From: Halobacteriales archaeon YIM A00010
GTDB taxonomy: Archaea; Halobacteriota; Halobacteria; Halobacteriales; Haloarculaceae
Length of the DNA: 64,000 bases
NCBI GenBank assembly: GCA_025041175.1
Contig: JAKCFJ010000001.1
Coordinates: 2,497,526 to 2,561,525, forward strand
Reading direction: 5' to 3'
Part shown: piece after piece, positions 23,116 to 48,799 of the stretch
Layout: each line of letters opens with the position of its first letter
How positions within the stretch are numbered: position 1 is the stretch's first letter
Program-made: the position numbers and the translations under genes
Notes under the pieces: model-generated
What the model was told of the DNA's origin: nothing
Seen by the model: only the letters and a program-made list of their open reading frames with translations
Database searches by the model: none

Positions 23116-23920
23116 GGATCTACGTCGGTGCAAGCACGCTCATTGCGCTCGGGACCGTTGGTACCCTCTATCTTTTGTGTGACTTCGATGGTCGGGTCAC
23201 CGTTCTCCCTGCTGTCGCCAGAAGCCTCTGGCTTCTGGCTGCTAACCGAGCTTCGCTCGGTGATGTCGTCGGACTGTGTCCGACTGTCACCGGCCGTAGG
23301 CCGGTTGCCCGAGGAACGGTTGTTCCTCGCTGCTTGAGGCGCGTAGCGCCTCTCTGTCACCGGGCTTTGCCCGGTTGCTTGCGGAGTCCTCGAAAACGCG
23401 TTGCGTTTTCGGGAGCGCGAAAATCGAAGATTTTCGCAGCCTTCGCTCCGCTCTGTCGCCGGGCTACGTCCGGTTGCTTTTCGAGCATCGCTCGACTCTG
23501 TTGTCAAAGAAGTCACGACCGAACCCGCCGAGACGAATCTGGAGCGGTTCATCGAAACGAACGACGCCCGAAGCCGTTTTCCTGCGGCGGAGACCGACTG
23601 TAAACGGGCGCTGTCGTACTGGACGAGTCCGAACGAAACGGCGACGTTCATCTCACAGCGTGCGTCCTCCATCATAGGAGAGGGATGAGTCGGTCGGGAT
23701 CGTCTCCGGCGACCGGCGCGTCCGCACCGTCGCTCGTGGGTTCGGGGCAACGGTCACCGGGACGATCGGGGTGCTCGTTCGTGCTGTCGAGGAAGGATAC
23801 GACGGACAGGACGCCAAAACGCTCCTCCGGCGCATCGACAGCAACGGGCTTCACACGACCGGCGAACTCCGCGAGACGGCGACGCAACTCATCGAGGAGG
23901 CGGCAGAACGAACAAAATAG
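23112..23920 (+). pseudogene. PIN-domain (DUF3368-type VapC-like) toxin, interrupted by a hairpin array and frameshifted
   Basis: N-terminal part: MRIYVGASTLIALGTVG, where the first catalytic aspartate of the PIN active site is glycine (family VDAS). The frame runs to VTVLPAV (23215) and is then broken by 286 nt of hairpin array. It resumes at about 23502 with VKEVTTEPAETNLERF and shifts frame again near 23690 before the C-terminal part DRRVRTVARGFGATVTG to the TAG at 23920. Three lesions (lost acidic residue, insertion, frameshift) make this a dead ribonuclease toxin. Its partner antitoxin just upstream is also broken. Confidence 0.85.
23217..23495. repeat. array of 12 short perfect hairpins
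   Basis: Hairpins at 23217-23239, 23245-23261, 23268-23284, 23289-23305, 23310-23329, 23336-23352, 23359-23375, 23391-23411, 23417-23437, 23381-23451 (interrupted, see findings), 23459-23473 and 23481-23495. Arms are 6-10 bp and nearly all perfect; loops are 3 nt (TCT, TTC, TGT, GTA, TTT, GTT, GAA, TAC, ATC) except one of 4, always closed by C-G. Linkers between hairpins alternate loosely between TGTC-like and TGCT-like. No conserved direct repeat, so not CRISPR. It sits inside the PIN pseudogene. Confidence 0.92.
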
Positions 23921-29511: not shown

Positions 29512-29667
29512 ACCACCACCTTTTTTACGTTCGGGTGGCCGAAGGCCACCCTCACGAAAAAAATCTGGACCAAAAAAAGCCGCTCGCTCCGCTCGCAGTG
29601 GGTGTACTCACCGCCACCGCTCCCGCTCTGCCACCGCAACTGCACGCTACGATTCCTTGTCAGTCGT
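29512..29667 (+). repeat. repeat A: ~155-bp intergenic repeat with terminator-like hairpin
   Basis: Near-identical, in inverted orientation, to 33400-33568. It holds a T-tract (29521-29526), a perfect 8-bp-arm hairpin at 29533-29551 (GGGTGGCC, loop GAA), an A-tract (29557-29563), a second A-tract (29572-29578) and a CGCTCG-rich stretch. The flanking T and A tracts would give poly-U ends on both strands, so it can serve as a bidirectional terminator for tbp and the convergent gene. Its far end overlaps the last codons (TTDKES) of the gene ending at 29647. Confidence 0.85.
29519..29526 (+). terminator. T-tract terminator of tbp
   Basis: Run of six T starting 20 nt after the tbp stop codon, immediately before a stable hairpin. 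Archaeal RNA polymerase terminates at such T-tracts. Confidence 0.55.
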
Positions 29668-33399: not shown

Positions 33400-33568
33400 C
33401 GACTGACAGGGAATCGTAACGTGCGGTGGCGGCGCGGTCGCGGTGGCAGTAGCGGGGTGGAGCGGTCGCGGTGAGTACACCCACCGCGAGCGGAGCGAGC
33501 GGCTTTTTTTGGTCCAGATTTTTTGCGTGAGGGTGGCCTTCGGCCACCCGAACGTAAAAAAGGTGGTG
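33400..33568 (-). repeat. repeat B: inverted copy of repeat A
   Basis: Matches 29512-29667 in reverse orientation over its whole length: the same hairpin (GGGTGGCC/GGCCACCC with loop TTC on this strand, 33531-33549), the same T and A tracts (33503-33509, 33520-33525, 33556-33561), the same GAGCGAGCGG stretch and the same short end ACTGACAGGGAATCG. The variable part is the GC-rich stretch 33421-33470. Confidence 0.85.
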
Positions 33569-38344: not shown

Positions 38345-38463
38345 GCCAGTGGTTAGGAAGTGTGGTGGTAAAAGTCATGTTCGAGTCACCACAGCCTGCT
38401 GGGCATCGTCCTCCCGGGTGGTCCCGTCGGTGTGGATCTACAGAACTACAAGGAGAGTGCCTC

Positions 38464-38531
38464 GGGGTCGCGCAAATCGCGTAGCGATTTGCTGGATACG
38501 GGAAATCGAAGATTTCCCTTGACTTGACCCC
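38464..38531. repeat. double-hairpin unit at the tnpA end of the IS605-type element
   Basis: Hairpin 38472-38492 (arm GCAAATCGC, loop GTA) and hairpin 38500-38518 (arm GGGAAATC, loop GAA), linker TGGATAC, enclosed by GGGGTC/GACCCC (38464-38469, 38526-38531). The arms are identical to those of the unit at 48532-48586, in inverted orientation, while the loops differ. Confidence 0.88.
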
Positions 38532-38552
38532 GATGGTGAATCCGACATGAGC

Positions 38553-38969
38553 CTACACGTACTCCGTGCGTTCGATATACTGTTCAATCGTCTCGCTTGA
38601 AACCTCATCTGCCGTTCCGATGTAGTACGATCCCTCCCAGAATCCTCCACTCCATAGAAATTCCTCCAAGTACGCTTCGTGTTGCTTCCACATCTCACGG
38701 GCAGTTATGCTCTTGATCGTCCGCACGATCTCGCTCGGCGCATACCTTGGATGTGCCGACACGAACAGGTGTATGTGATCGGGCGAGATATGGAGTGACT
38801 GTATTTCGTATCCGTAATCGTCGCAGACCTCGCGGAAACTTGTTTCCAGAGACTTCTTGATTGAGTCCAGTATTGCATGGCGATACTTTGGACATCGCAA
38901 ATCGGAGATTTGCGAGCAGTAAATCTTCGATTTACGACACCACACGAAGTGATAGTTGACGTTGTACAC
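38553..38969 (-). CDS. tnpA: IS200-type HUH (Y1) transposase TnpA with an in-frame hairpin insert
   Basis: 138 residues; the GTG start is uncertain because the frame stays open upstream. The HUH motif is SPDHIHLFVS (about 63-72) and the catalytic tyrosine lies in EGSYYIGT (about 113-120). The enzyme cuts and rejoins single-stranded DNA at hairpin-marked ends. Between NYHFVWC and CPKYRHAIL, where relatives read VWCPKYR, there are 15 extra residues encoded by a 45-nt double-hairpin unit (38892-38936). The insert keeps the frame, so the protein may be active. Confidence 0.9.
   Translation of the reverse strand: MYNVNYHFVWCRKSKIYCSQISDLRCPKYRHAILDSIKKSLETSFREVCDDYGYEIQSLHISPDHIHLFVSAHPRYAPSEIVRTIKSITAREMWKQHEAYLEEFLWSGGFWEGSYYIGTADEVSSETIEQYIERTEYV
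38892..38936. repeat. 45-nt double-hairpin insert within tnpA
   Basis: Hairpin 38896-38914 (arm CGCAAATC, loop GGA) and hairpin 38919-38935 (arm GTAAATC, loop TTC) with linker AGCA. In the tnpA sense the insert is flanked by TGT on both sides. Removing it restores the usual VWCPKYR reading. Confidence 0.88.
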
Positions 38970-39049
38970 TGTGTGGTTCGAGTGCTTCTTACTTACATTT
39001 CCACCATCCAGTCGACATTCTTATGTATATCCAAAATATATACCCTAAT

Positions 39050-39205
39050 ATGGGGGAGTACTTTGAGATCGACGGTCAGGAAGTGATCGTCCGAGAGGTC
39101 AAACCCTTCGGGAACAGTGCTCACGTTACTGTTCCCAAACGCTGGCGCGGTGCGGACGTGAAAGTCGTCCGCACCTCACCCCCCGATCCGCAGGACGACC
39201 CATGA
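39050..39205 (+). CDS. DUF2080 transposon-associated protein
   Basis: 51 residues, start MGEYFEIDGQEVIVREVKP, then GNSAHVTVPKRWRGADVKVV. The AbrB-like small protein regularly precedes tnpB in haloarchaeal IS605-family elements. Its stop overlaps the tnpB ATG (ATGA). Possibly a DNA-binding regulator of the element; role unproven. The 50-residue counterpart at 47126 shares the REVKPFG and PKRW.GADVKVVR blocks. Confidence 0.85.
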   Translation: MGEYFEIDGQEVIVREVKPFGNSAHVTVPKRWRGADVKVVRTSPPDPQDDP

Positions 39206-40407
39206 CCGACACAGTAGAACTCACAAAGACGCTTGTCTTTCAGCTTGATATTCAGAGTGACAATGTTGAACTGCTTGAGGAGGCGCGTCTGGAGTGTCGC
39301 CGTGTGTTTAACGAAGTGCTTCGTCTTGACCGCGAAGGCTGGGACTGGGACGATATCGATGACACCGTGACACAGAACGCCGACCTGGTGAACAATACAG
39401 CCCAGCGGATCATCAACAAGGCTTTTGACGCTATCCAAGCCTACTACGACAACGACGATTGGGGACGACCATGGTACAAACACGAATCGTTCCCACTCCG
39501 TATGAACTACGGTGAAGGCTATAACCTCTTTCTCGAAGACGACGAGTCGGTACGGTTTCGCCTCTCCGCGAAACCGTACAAACATGTCAAAGGCGAACTT
39601 CGTGGGAGTCCCGACCAGCACGAGTTGCTCGAACGAGCGATGGAGTCGGATGAGTGGCGGGTCGGAACAGCTGAAGCGCTCGTTCGCAATGGGGGAAACG
39701 AACTTCACGTCACCATCACCCACGAGTCCGCCGAAGTGCGGGAGAAATCCACCGCCGAAACGGTCGTCGGTGTCGATATCAACGAGGACTGTATCGCATT
39801 AGCGGCACTGACCGAATCAGGGATTGAGGACTCTATTGTCATCGACTTTCCCGAGATCAAAGCCCAGCGCCATCGGTATTTCACACGGCGCAAACGGATG
39901 CAACAGGCCGATCAAACGGCGTTCAATGAGCTGTTCCGAACTAAGGAACAGCGGTTCGTGCACGATCAGCTCCACAAGGTTTCCCGGCTTGTAGTGAGGT
40001 GGATACAGCGGTTCGAGCGTCCCATTGTCGTCTTTGAAGACCTCAAAGACATGCGAGACGACATCGAGTACGGGACGCGGATGAACCGCCGCCTCCACTG
40101 CCTGCCATTTGCCCACCTTCGGAAATTCATCACATACAAAGCGGCGTGGTGTGGGATTCCAACCGACGACGTTGATCCAGCGTACACGTCCCAACGGTGT
40201 ACGCGGACGTCATGCGAACACACCGAACGTGCAAACCGGAACAGGAAACGGTTCAAATGCTGTGCGTGTGGTCGCCAAGATCACTCTGATCGTGGCGCTG
40301 GAATCAGCGTGGCGAAAAACTGGTTGTATCGTTCCAACAGAAATGTGCCTGCTCTCAACACGCTCCCACAAGTGCGCAAGTGGAAGCTGCGATGTTCACA
40401 AGAGTGA
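39202..40407 (+). CDS. tnpB: TnpB RNA-guided nuclease, IS605 family
   Basis: 401 residues. N-terminal helical REC/WED region, RuvC I VVGVDINED (about 191-199, catalytic Asp), RuvC II VVFEDLKDM (about 275-283, Glu), zinc finger CTRTSC...CCACG (about 332-357) and RuvC III SDRGAG with the last Asp (about 362). All three catalytic acids are present. Family members are programmable nucleases that keep the transposon at its site, guided by an omega RNA from the right end. Its stop codon lies inside a hairpin (40398-40416), so the C-terminus was probably reshaped by a hairpin unit. Confidence 0.93.
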   Translation: MTDTVELTKTLVFQLDIQSDNVELLEEARLECRRVFNEVLRLDREGWDWDDIDDTVTQNADLVNNTAQRIINKAFDAIQAYYDNDDWGRPWYKHESFPLRMNYGEGYNLFLEDDESVRFRLSAKPYKHVKGELRGSPDQHELLERAMESDEWRVGTAEALVRNGGNELHVTITHESAEVREKSTAETVVGVDINEDCIALAALTESGIEDSIVIDFPEIKAQRHRYFTRRKRMQQADQTAFNELFRTKEQRFVHDQLHKVSRLVVRWIQRFERPIVVFEDLKDMRDDIEYGTRMNRRLHCLPFAHLRKFITYKAAWCGIPTDDVDPAYTSQRCTRTSCEHTERANRNRKRFKCCACGRQDHSDRGAGISVAKNWLYRSNRNVPALNTLPQVRKWKLRCSQE

Positions 40408-40682
40408 AGCTCTTGTACAGCCCGCAAAGTCGCGTAGCGACTTTGAGACGGCAGGGATCGGGGCCGGTGGACGGCCCGACCGTGACCCAAACCACCGCGA
40501 GAGGTCATCATACCGACGGTGGCGCGGGAGTGCTTGAATAATCCACGGGAAGACTGCGAAAAGCTTCGCTTTTCGCGTTGCCAAGGAGCTTCACTCCTTG
40601 AGCATCCCGGGGTCGTCCGAGACGGCTTCGCCGTCTCGTGATGACGAGAGACCTTCGGTCTCTCGAACCACTTAACCCCGGG
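40398..40682. repeat. hairpin-rich right end of the IS605-type element (possible omega-RNA region)
   Basis: Six hairpins: 40398-40416 (arm ACAAGAG), 40425-40445 (CAAAGTCGC, loop GTA), 40556-40576 (GCGAAAAGC, TTC), 40582-40600 (CAAGGAG), 40618-40638 (CGAGACGGC, TTC) and 40645-40665 (CGAGAGACC, TTC). They fall into three pairs, i.e. three double-hairpin units. The outer pair CCCGGGGT/ACCCCGGG encloses the last two. TnpB omega RNAs come from this position in known elements. Confidence 0.85.
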
Positions 40683-40688
40683 CGCAGT

Positions 40689-40853
40689 TCACTCGATGCG
40701 GTTGGTGTTCAACTTCTCCTGAAGCTCTTCGAGCCACCCCTCCGATTGCAGCTCTTCGAACCGAGCGCGGAAGTGCTGCTGGCACAGTCCGACCTTTACA
40801 CCGTCTTTCTCGACGGACATGGCAGCCTCTTCCTCGCAGTAATGACACTGCAT
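40689..40853 (-). CDS. DUF6757-like small zinc protein
   Basis: 54 residues from the ATG giving MQCHYCEEEAAMSVEKDGV. CxxC (about 3-6) and a later CQQHF (about 27-31) make one probable zinc site; the C-terminal half is a charged helix ending KLNTNRIE. Similar small proteins (MQCHYC start, VEKDGVKVGLC core) recur in haloarchaea. Function unknown. Its stop lies 7 nt from the IS end, so the element inserted right behind it. Confidence 0.75.
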   Translation of the reverse strand: MQCHYCEEEAAMSVEKDGVKVGLCQQHFRARFEELQSEGWLEELQEKLNTNRIE

Positions 40854-47125: not shown

Positions 47126-47278
47126 ATGGCATCGTTCACAGTCGAGGGCGAAGAAGCTCTCGACCGCGAAGTGAAGCCCTTCGGGAGCGGCGGTGCTCAT
47201 ATCACCATCCCGAAGCGGTGGCTCGGGGCGGACGTGAAAGTCGTCCGAATCTCCGACCCTACCGACTCCGAGGAGTAA
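47126..47278 (+). CDS. DUF2080 transposon-associated protein
   Basis: 50 residues starting MASFTVEGEEALDREVKP and continuing GSGGAHITIPKRWLGADVKVV. It shares the REVKPFG, IPKRW and GADVKVVR blocks with the 51-residue protein at 39050, so it is the same family from a diverged element. It lies 6 nt upstream of the broken tnpB. Reading frame intact. Confidence 0.85.
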   Translation: MASFTVEGEEALDREVKPFGSGGAHITIPKRWLGADVKVVRISDPTDSEE

Positions 47279-47626
47279 CGTAGCATGGACTTCGCCTACA
47301 GGTTCCGGCTCAACCCCACGTCCGACCAGCAGGAGCGACTGGCGTGGACGCTGGATACCTGTCGGCAAGTCCGCAACCACTTTCTCCACCGCATGAATCG
47401 CATGGAGAACTCGACATACACGCCCGAACAGAACCGTCTCCCCGACCTCAAGAAGTGGTGGACTGACCTCCGAAAAATCAACTCGAAAGTGCTTCAGATG
47501 GTCATCCGACGGCTCTACACCGACCGCTCCAACCTCAAGAAAAAGAAAGACAAGGGCCACAAAGTCGGCGAGCTGAAATGGAAGGGCAAAGGGTACTACC
47601 ACTCCTTTGAGTACAATCAATCCGGT

Positions 47627-47684
47627 CACCAGAAGCCGTCGGCTTCTGGTTGGCAGCCAGAAATCGCAGATTTCTGGCGACGGC
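47627..47684. repeat. 58-nt double-hairpin insert in tnpB
   Basis: Hairpin 47629-47649 (arm CCAGAAGCC, loop GTC), linker TTGGCAG, hairpin 47657-47677 (arm CCAGAAATC, loop GCA). The first arm is identical to that of the first hairpin in the PIN-gene array (23218-23238). The insert shifts the tnpB frame by one. Confidence 0.9.
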
Positions 47685-48531
47685 TTCGAACTCAAGAAAA
47701 CGAGTGGCCGAGATAGGTTGTATCTCAACAAGATTGGCGACGTACCCGTTGTTGCCCACCGCGACTTGCCCGACGATGCCGAGGTGAAAGGCGTCGTCGT
47801 CAAACGCGAGCCTACCGGCCGCTGGTATGCTTCGCTCCAACTCGAAACACCCGACGACCCACCCGAGAAACCCGACGAGTTGACCGAAACGGTCGGTATC
47901 GACGTGGGCATACTCAACTACGCCACCGATACCGATGGAACCGCCGTCGGCTCACTCGACCTTTCAGACGAACGCGAGCGGTTGGAACGGGCTCAGCGCG
48001 ACCTCTCGCGGAAAGAACACGGGTCGAACAACTGGGAGGACCAACGCAAGACCGTTGCCCGGCGTCACGCCGACTTGAAACGGAAACGCCGCGACTTCTT
48101 GCACAAACTCTCGAACTACTACGCCCGCAACTACGACCTCGTGGCCGTGGAGGATTTGGACGCGAAGGGATTGATCGAACTCCCCGGCAACTCACGGAAC
48201 CGCGCGGGCGCGGCGTGGGGGACGTTCCTGCGGATGCTCAAATACAAGTGCGAGCGGGAAGGGGCGCACTTCGTCGCGGTGGACCCGCGTGGAACGACCA
48301 AAGAATGCGCGGCGTGTGGCGTCGCAACCGAGAAACCGTTGTGGGTCCGCGAACACTCGTGTCCGGCGTGTGGCTTTTCTGCGGACAGAGATTGGAACGC
48401 GGCCTACAACATCCTCGTACGAGGACTCGAGCAAGTAGGGACGGGCTGTCCCGAATCAACGCCTGCGGAGACTGCGCTCCCTACGGGAACCACTTCGGTT
48501 CCTGCACAGCGCGTCGTGGAAACAGGAAGTC

Positions 48532-48586
48532 AAGGGAAATCGTAGATTTCCCGTATCCAGCAAATCGCTCCGCGATTTGCGCGACC
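48532..48586. repeat. 55-nt double-hairpin insert in the tnpB 3' end
   Basis: Hairpin 48534-48552 (arm GGGAAATC, loop GTA), linker GTATCCA, hairpin 48560-48580 (arm GCAAATCGC, loop TCC). Same arms and linker as 38464-38531 in inverted orientation, different loops. Confidence 0.9.
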
Positions 48587-48799
48587 CCGCCCTCAAGGAG
48601 CGAACCGCGCAAGCGGTGAGCGAGTAGGGCGGGGAGGAAGTCACCAGCCCACATCTGTGAGTACAGCGAATTCCGCATCACAGCGACGTTTTCTCATTTC
48701 GGGGGGGTTTGATTGAATCCGTTCGATCCCCGACGAGTGGAGAGAATATATATGACCTAATGTGTCTTCAACATGCCCTTATCCCTTGAGGAGAAACGA

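Follow-up and report, generated by a model that had tools for sequence, protein, structure and literature searches.

Judged by sequence comparison, the 55-bp double-hairpin unit F1 is a precise site-specific insert at AAG|CCCC and not part of the transposon in which it sits. We consider it probably a very small non-autonomous mobile insert with AAG|CCCC as its target. This reading draws on its boundaries, its modularity, its empty sites, the site that it has in common with a sister family (F2) and the spread of a PATE carrying F2, all of which are read from sequence. The further step, movement by a Y1 (HUH) TnpA acting in trans, we regard as quite possible, if a little short of probable.

Anatomy of the F1 unit and its carrier transposons

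The window, that is, the whole stretch of 64,000 nucleotides analysed (G000:C1:2497526-2561525, 59% G+C), is haloarchaeal to judge from its relatives, comes from a genome of 5.97 Mb in 7 contigs and holds two copies of F1. The first is an insert at 48530..48584 on the plus strand, at the 3' end of a tnpB gene, with the form TCAA-hp1-GTATCCA-hp2-GCGA at GGAAG|CCCC. Hairpin 1 (48534..48552, plus strand) reads GGGAAATC-GTA-GATTTCCC, hairpin 2 (48560..48580, plus strand) reads GCAAATCGC-TCC-GCGATTTGC, and between them lies the linker GTATCCA (48553..48559, plus strand), the best-conserved segment of the unit. The second copy is inverted (38468..38522, minus strand) and lies in an IS605-type element, within the loop of the palindrome near the tnpA-side terminus; the hairpins of this copy occupy 38472-38492 and 38500-38518, with loops TAC and TTC in matching orientation. 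The shared arms, the common linker and the differing loops of the two copies had been pointed out in a preliminary description of this DNA, and the sequence bears them out. That description had placed the first unit at 48532-48586; the unit is real, and its start and end each lie two bases lower.

Aligned flanks gave the consensus TCAA-hp1-GTATCCA-hp2-G[C/A]GA, 55 bp long with exact ends. The hairpins begin 4 nt from each end, and there is no terminal inverted repeat beyond TC...GA. DNA folding predicted two hairpins on either strand (z of -5.5 and -4.5). The two hairpins travel as a pair: within the sampled stretches a single lone hp1-like place was the only half unit, and none of these stretches held a parent element in which hp1 and hp2 lie at a distance from each other. 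AAG precedes F1 in 16 of the 22 related places found by a search for the linker and the start of hp2; among the 6 without a left AAG, 5 have a lost or changed left end.

Counting perfect triloop hairpins whose arms measure at least 8, we found 18 in the window, forming 5 adjacent pairs, while 40 Markov-1 (dinucleotide) shuffles of the window gave a mean of 1.55 hairpins (maximum 4) and no adjacent pair. Nine blindly taken stretches of the same genome (180 kb) showed a mild excess of triloop hairpins, 13 vs 6.3, so the distribution of the units is clustered and not even. Rfam gave no match above the gathering score in the window.

The first carrier is a whole IS605-type element (38438..40692, CTACAG...TTCAC), delimited by analogy with mapped copies and with boundaries taken from a related PATE; it comprises a left end, tnpA, a DUF2080-like ORF, tnpB and a right end. 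The palindrome occupied by F1 has its 5' arm (CCTCGGGG) at 38460..38467, and the remnant CTTGA of its loop together with its 3' arm CCCCGATGG at 38523..38536. The tnpA gene (38553..38969, minus strand) encodes a Y1 transposase (PF01797) scoring 144.4 bits against the IS200 profile NF033573 (cut-off 55), and contains a 45-bp in-frame double-hairpin insert at 38895..38939 (minus strand). Downstream are tnpB (39202..40407, plus strand) and, in the right-end palindrome, a double-hairpin unit of the F2 family at an AAG|CCCC site (40613..40670, minus strand), so that F1 occupies one end of the element and F2 the opposite end.

The second carrier gene is an IS1341-type tnpB (47285..48545, plus strand). 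The preliminary description was right that the unit at 48.5 kb truncates TnpB, the frame stopping at a TAG inside the unit (48543-48545), and right about the old stop, an ancestral TAG at 48625-48627. The gene had already been frameshifted at 47.65 kb by another double-hairpin insert of 58 bp with the linker TGGCA (~47626-47683, plus strand; boundaries inferred from the expected protein). The right-end palindrome of this element, CCCCGCCC...GGGCGGGG (48585..48644, plus strand), is intact 3' of F1. Small DUF2080-like ORFs lie 5' of both tnpB genes, at 39050-39204 and 47126-47278; for the former the annotation was taken from related plasmids.

Insertion contexts and empty sites

F1 occurs in three mutually unrelated contexts. 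Class A, which includes the copy at 48.5 kb, has the form GGAAG|unit|CCCC at the 3' end of one tnpB type; class A2, ATCAAAG|unit, lies at the end of another tnpB type; and class B, which includes the copy at 38.5 kb, reads GTCAAG|unit|CCCCGAGG between two palindrome halves. Within class A, unit identity was 0.94 vs 0.66-0.67 for the 80-nt flanks, and the carriers' TnpB proteins showed 51-70% identity to the TnpB at 48.5 kb over the matched parts. Between classes A and B, the units were still 0.88 identical, while the flanks (0.57-0.59) were at the shuffled level of 0.58. The orientation of F1 relative to tnpB also varies, as in L125.

Empty counterparts exist for these contexts. Empty class-A sites were found in the same genome at L032, L120 and L117 and at ~60.1 kb in the window, and its unit-free tnpB ends read GGAAG|CCCC or ATCAAAG|CCCC, with no bases missing or duplicated. 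Class B predicts an unoccupied palindrome TCGGGGTCAAG|CCCCGA. Such an empty palindrome (TCGGGGTCAAGCCCCGA) was present, with at most 1 mismatch, in 53 of 77 related genomes, compared with 1 of 77 for the reversed control; the near-terminal palindrome has the form CTCGGGG-TCAAG-CCCCGAG. On contig C3 of the own genome, an empty copy lies directly 3' of another, uninterrupted Y1 tnpA. Nine of the 20 empty loci fetched adjoin tnpA or tnpB, and around those next to tnpA the surrounding letters are much like those at 38.5 kb in the window. The palindrome is empty at both ends of named IS605 elements on plasmids of Halobacterium salinarum R1 and Halorussus aquaticus; in Haloferax larsenii, the tnpA end is empty and the right end is occupied by F2. 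Comparison of occupied with empty sites showed no target duplication. Once empty sites had been found, in tnpB ends as well as in palindromes, we no longer regarded the unit as native to tnpB ends. Other double-hairpin inserts, within tnpA and tnpB reading frames, are not all at AAG|CCCC.

A sister family at the same site

F2 units have the form TGGTT-hp-TCATCA-hp-xACGA and, on the TCAAG strand, are located at AAG|CCCC, as F1 is. A gapped search of the palindrome for unit-sized inserts returned 62 occupied palindromes, spread over 22 of 77 genomes, and none in the control. Four of them hold F1 (three in the own genome, one in the congener G387) and 58 hold F2-like units, a few of them degraded. 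Of 30 occupied loci fetched, 21 adjoin tnpA or tnpB. After removal of the 4 F1 cases and 4 identical repeats of listed rows, 54 entered the F2 analysis, whose statistics rest on the 41 units of 69 nt, the 13 of other lengths being left out; the F2 locus alignment contains 17 of the 30 fetched loci.

In genome G221, a PATE of ~440 bp, extending from CTACAG to TTCAC, is present in three copies with different flanks. All three carry an identical F2 unit in the left palindrome, and the right palindrome is empty. The unit has thus travelled with the PATE, which counts against pure inactivation; judging from these sequences, occupied transposon ends can still move. At another locus (L053, G000:C2:102784), an F2-like hairpin and linker are joined to an F1 hp1-GTATCCA-hp2, which suggests an F1/F2 chimera formed by recombination between hairpins.

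Distribution of F1

The own genome contains 13 F1 copies within 3 mismatches and none of the reversed control pattern. The linker with the start of hp2, at 1 mismatch, matched 23 places there, one of which (L067) is unrelated. Across 392 genomes of the order, the F1 core was found in two, with 15 copies in the own genome and one in G387. A second contig collection yielded 7 matches. Four are in haloarchaeal contigs and are units, hp1 being degraded in L078; the 3 matches in bacterial contigs have no hairpins and look like chance. Around the unit, one of these haloarchaeal contigs (YIM A00013) is identical in sequence to G387. Among named plasmids there was one weak, degenerate relative, in Halocatena salina. 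A viral source was considered and set aside, as there were no matches among viral contigs. Hairpins of the general GNA kind are far more widespread, turning up in 116 of 146 genomes from the order, where the control gave 2 of 146.

Variation in arms, loops and linker

We quantified variation in the 22 core F1 copies with both hairpins recognisable (18 from the own genome, 4 from elsewhere). Mean pairwise differences per site were 0.31 for loop 1 and 0.59 for loop 2, 0.139 for arm 1 and 0.044 for arm 2, and 0.025 for the linker, the lowest of all parts. The unrelated L067 was removed before all F1 alignments; four copies with one unrecognisable hairpin (L046, L062, L065 and L066) are left out of these figures and are included in those for 26 rows; and L058, which has one extra base, is shifted by one base in the alignment. 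Of the 44 loops, 42 were GNA or TNC, so the loops are constrained too. The earlier picture of preserved arms and variable loops thus survives in the faster change of loops than of arms; it is the linker, not the arms, that is most conserved, and the loops are themselves restricted. Its account of the unit was in part supported, having missed that this is a site-specific insert in transposon ends and that loops also flip to the reverse complement.

Compensatory change, proposed in the preliminary description as a check, turned out modest in F1 and strong in F2. In F1 (26 rows), 91.2% of cells were paired and 14 were changed on both sides, vs 4.1 in shuffles; the covariation score was 0.123 vs 0.082 shuffled, and none of 500 shuffles scored as high. 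Yet double-sided changes fell at only 3 of 17 pairs, and changed cells comprised 15 broken pairs vs 10 Watson-Crick replacements. Four core copies (L060, L063, L075 and L077) have lost two hp2 pairs symmetrically. For the 17 F2 loci, 99.3% of cells were paired, with 34 double-change cells vs 12.6 and a covariation score of 0.314 vs 0.114 shuffled (again 0 of 500 as high); for the 41 distinct 69-mers, 98.9% were paired vs 88.3%, with 76 double-change cells vs 26.7. In all these pairing statistics, cells are not independent events. The F2 changes involve two neighbouring inner pairs that change as blocks (GA, CG, AT), and the hairpin tips show few alleles (GAC, ATC, CGC), likewise changing block-wise, so an exchange of tips may account for them just as well as compensation step by step. 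In none of the 41 F2 units of 69 nt did either hairpin vary in its closing C-G pair.

The loop preference extends beyond F1. Hairpins of the form AAATC-NNN-GATTT had GNA or TNC loops in 66 of 79 cases in the own genome and in 262 of 483 cases in 58 other Halobacteriales genomes, the expectation under equal use being 1 in 8. The same was true of 150 of 190 loops in 81 triloop-hairpin chains (1.264 Mb), and the preference was weaker in F2 (56 of 82). C-GNA-G is an extra-stable DNA mini-hairpin. The DNA folding energy model did not reproduce this extra stability and did not favour GNA over TNC, and the relevant text of PMC10527192 supports extra-stable mini-hairpins in general only. Of 71 paralogous hairpin pairs that match in their arms and are alike in their flanks, 44 had identical loops; the other 27 differed in the middle base (7), by exact reverse complementation (5), in both ways (4) or otherwise (11). 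L056 and L051 also differ by a pure loop flip.

The 45-bp insert in tnpA is common to the window and L075, a Haloferacaceae MAG contig, at the same codon, and is absent in L143. Six bases differ between the two inserts: four of them replace two base pairs completely, and the other two are the middle bases of loops. Since the encoded residues differ, it is on the hairpins that the constraint or mutational mechanism acts.

Other hairpin arrays and families

Further hairpin families were seen in passing. At 23217-23500 the window has about ten different triloop hairpins with the alternating linkers TGTC and TTGCT, an array that seems to interrupt a small gene lying between 23112 and ~23690; L031 (13593-13900) holds a similar array with modules in common. 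Single hairpins with arms GGGTGGCC lie at 29533-29551 and 33531-33549, their loops GAA and TTC being exact flips. One tnpB site carries a 2-hairpin unit in L116 (10420-10470) and a 4-hairpin version in L115 (8793-8900), the latter looking as if the first double hairpin had received a second one in its TGATCA linker. A fourth double-hairpin family, with the linker CAAGTGAGC, has GGTGGCC as one of its arms in L028. Five copies of a unit TGTC-[GCCGAGC]-TGCTA-[ACCAGAAATC]-GATGTC were found, in L020, L029, L127, L132 and L134; in the L132 copy, the first loop is flipped from GAA to TTC with the arms unchanged.

Competing explanations

The right ends of TnpB elements overlap the omega-RNA region. 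One alternative is that the hairpins belonged to the transposon end from the start, as a TnpA-binding site or omega-RNA scaffold maintained through selection and lost in some copies. Most F1 copies do sit in IS605-type ends, whose right ends have this overlap, and the covariation fits a selected structure. Nevertheless, units are near-identical where flanks and TnpB differ, empty palindromes (53 of 77 genomes) are far commoner than the F1 core (2 of 392), two different double-hairpin families occupy one point, and units lie in either orientation relative to tnpB (L125) and also inside reading frames. The empty sites largely refute an original end part, which we hold to be very unlikely. An account in which the unit spread mainly by gene conversion or homologous recombination among IS ends and hairpins, instead of transposition, draws on the chimera-like L053, on the F2 tip alleles GAC, ATC and CGC changing as blocks, and on the one site common to F1 and F2. 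It explains tip exchange better than site occupancy: the homology of class A and B flanks is at the shuffled level, so the first insertion in each context needs another route. We find it unlikely as the main mode, although part of the spread of F1 could be gene conversion between transposon ends.

We think it similarly improbable that the unit is a host weapon inactivating IS605 ends. Such a role has been proposed for SMR-A of Haloquadratum in the pertinent passages of PMC3119063, and in the window the IS605 element is occupied at both ends and the second tnpB is broken; against it, a PATE with F2 in its left-end loop lies at three places with different flanks, and insertion into the loop leaves the outer stem intact. 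A different question is whether the paired arms are kept by mutation and not by selection, through template switching within hairpins, one arm serving to correct the other and the loop becoming inverted. This is compatible with a mobile insert and we regard it as possible, though doubtful. The four arm differences between the tnpA inserts of the window and L075 form two complete compensations, the other two being loop middle bases, and pure loop flips make up 5 of the 27 differing pairs, besides L056 vs L051. Yet F1 has 15 broken-pair cells, and pure mutation predicts neither the invariant closing C-G in 41 F2 units nor the GNA/TNC preference. The mobile-insert reading has its own difficulties: there are few Y1 tnpA genes (four) in the own genome, and 6 of 22 places lack the left AAG.

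Comparison with known elements

By analogy, the nearest known relatives of F1 are the SMR-A repeats of Haloquadratum and bacterial REP dimers. As described in PMC3119063, in its text on these repeats, SMR-A of Haloquadratum walsbyi (HqIRS42/43/55) is, like F1, short and transposase-free, makes no target duplication and inserts into near-terminal palindromes of PATEs and IS605-type transposons; its mobilisation is there called enigmatic. SMR-A is, however, ~110 bp long with prominent terminal inverted repeats, whereas F1 is 55 bp, ends in TCAA...GCGA and consists of two different hairpins. The PATEs of the same source are, like F1, non-autonomous, with hairpins near both ends and no target duplication, and are presumably moved by IS605 TnpA. 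In our data PATEs are the hosts of units, and F1 has about 1/8 of the length of one mapped PATE, with different ends and a different target. F1 also shares with non-autonomous IS200/IS605-type elements its subterminal hairpins at both ends, its lack of target duplication and its insertion 3' of a fixed short target (AAG|, in 16 of 22 places).

REP dimers, BIMEs and REPINs, in the portions of PMC3733652 that treat them, are paired short hairpins like F1, some inside palindromes and genes; CGTC-family stems are 8-9 bp with loops of 4-5 nt, GTAG REPs are linked to Y1 transposases and CGTC REPs to none known. REPs carry a tag (GTAG/GTGG or CGTC, in the corresponding text of PMC3733652 and PMC6006769); F1 has none, ending in TCAA and GCGA/GAGA, and has the defined target AAG|CCCC at transposon ends. 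The TnpA of the window, the one scanned of the four Y1 tnpA genes of the genome, scored 31.9 bits against the REP-associated tyrosine transposase (RAYT) profile NF047646, below the cut-off of 80. The section of PMC6006769 on Y1 subclasses gives IS200-type as the sole one seen in archaea, and the sections of PMC3733652 on REP families describe no archaeal one. The latter also name RPE-4 and RPE-6.

The in-frame tnpA insert has a counterpart in a different group. Rickettsia palindromic elements are palindromic repeats inserted in frame in genes, and the insert resembles them in this respect; those elements are bacterial and of other sequence. In the open-access literature, we found no paper on such two-hairpin units in haloarchaea.

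Proposed mechanism and meaning

In the mobile-insert reading, two hairpins with 3-nt loops joined by a fixed linker insert precisely at AAG|CCCC. Most insertions fall within the near-terminal palindrome of IS200/IS605-type transposons and PATEs, in its loop; others lie immediately 5' of the palindrome at the right end of TnpB-only elements. The unit may move as folded single-stranded DNA, by a Y1 (HUH) TnpA in trans, with its two hairpins acting as minimal left and right ends. Hairpin-templated copying or exchange could then restore pairing and flip or replace loop and tip. More broadly, and only tentatively, F1 and other two-hairpin elements of ~45-60 bp may form a class of satellite DNA in haloarchaea. 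Taken jointly, such elements would reside in the ends of IS605-type transposons when these are folded and single-stranded, enter the loops of the end hairpins by means of the transposon's own Y1 enzyme and ride along with the transposon, and be renewed by hairpin templating that keeps arms paired, flips GNA/TNC loops and swaps tips; this combined reading falls somewhat short of being probable.

F1 supplies an exact unit, a target, an empty site and a sister family for short mobile repeats of the SMR-A kind, and links such repeats to the single-stranded transposition of IS200/IS605 elements. Because its arms are paired and its loops flip, mutation templated by hairpins can be measured directly in living genomes. 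Should the reading prove true, a parasite of ~55 bp whose landing place is the end structure of a transposon itself would be strikingly small for a mobile element.
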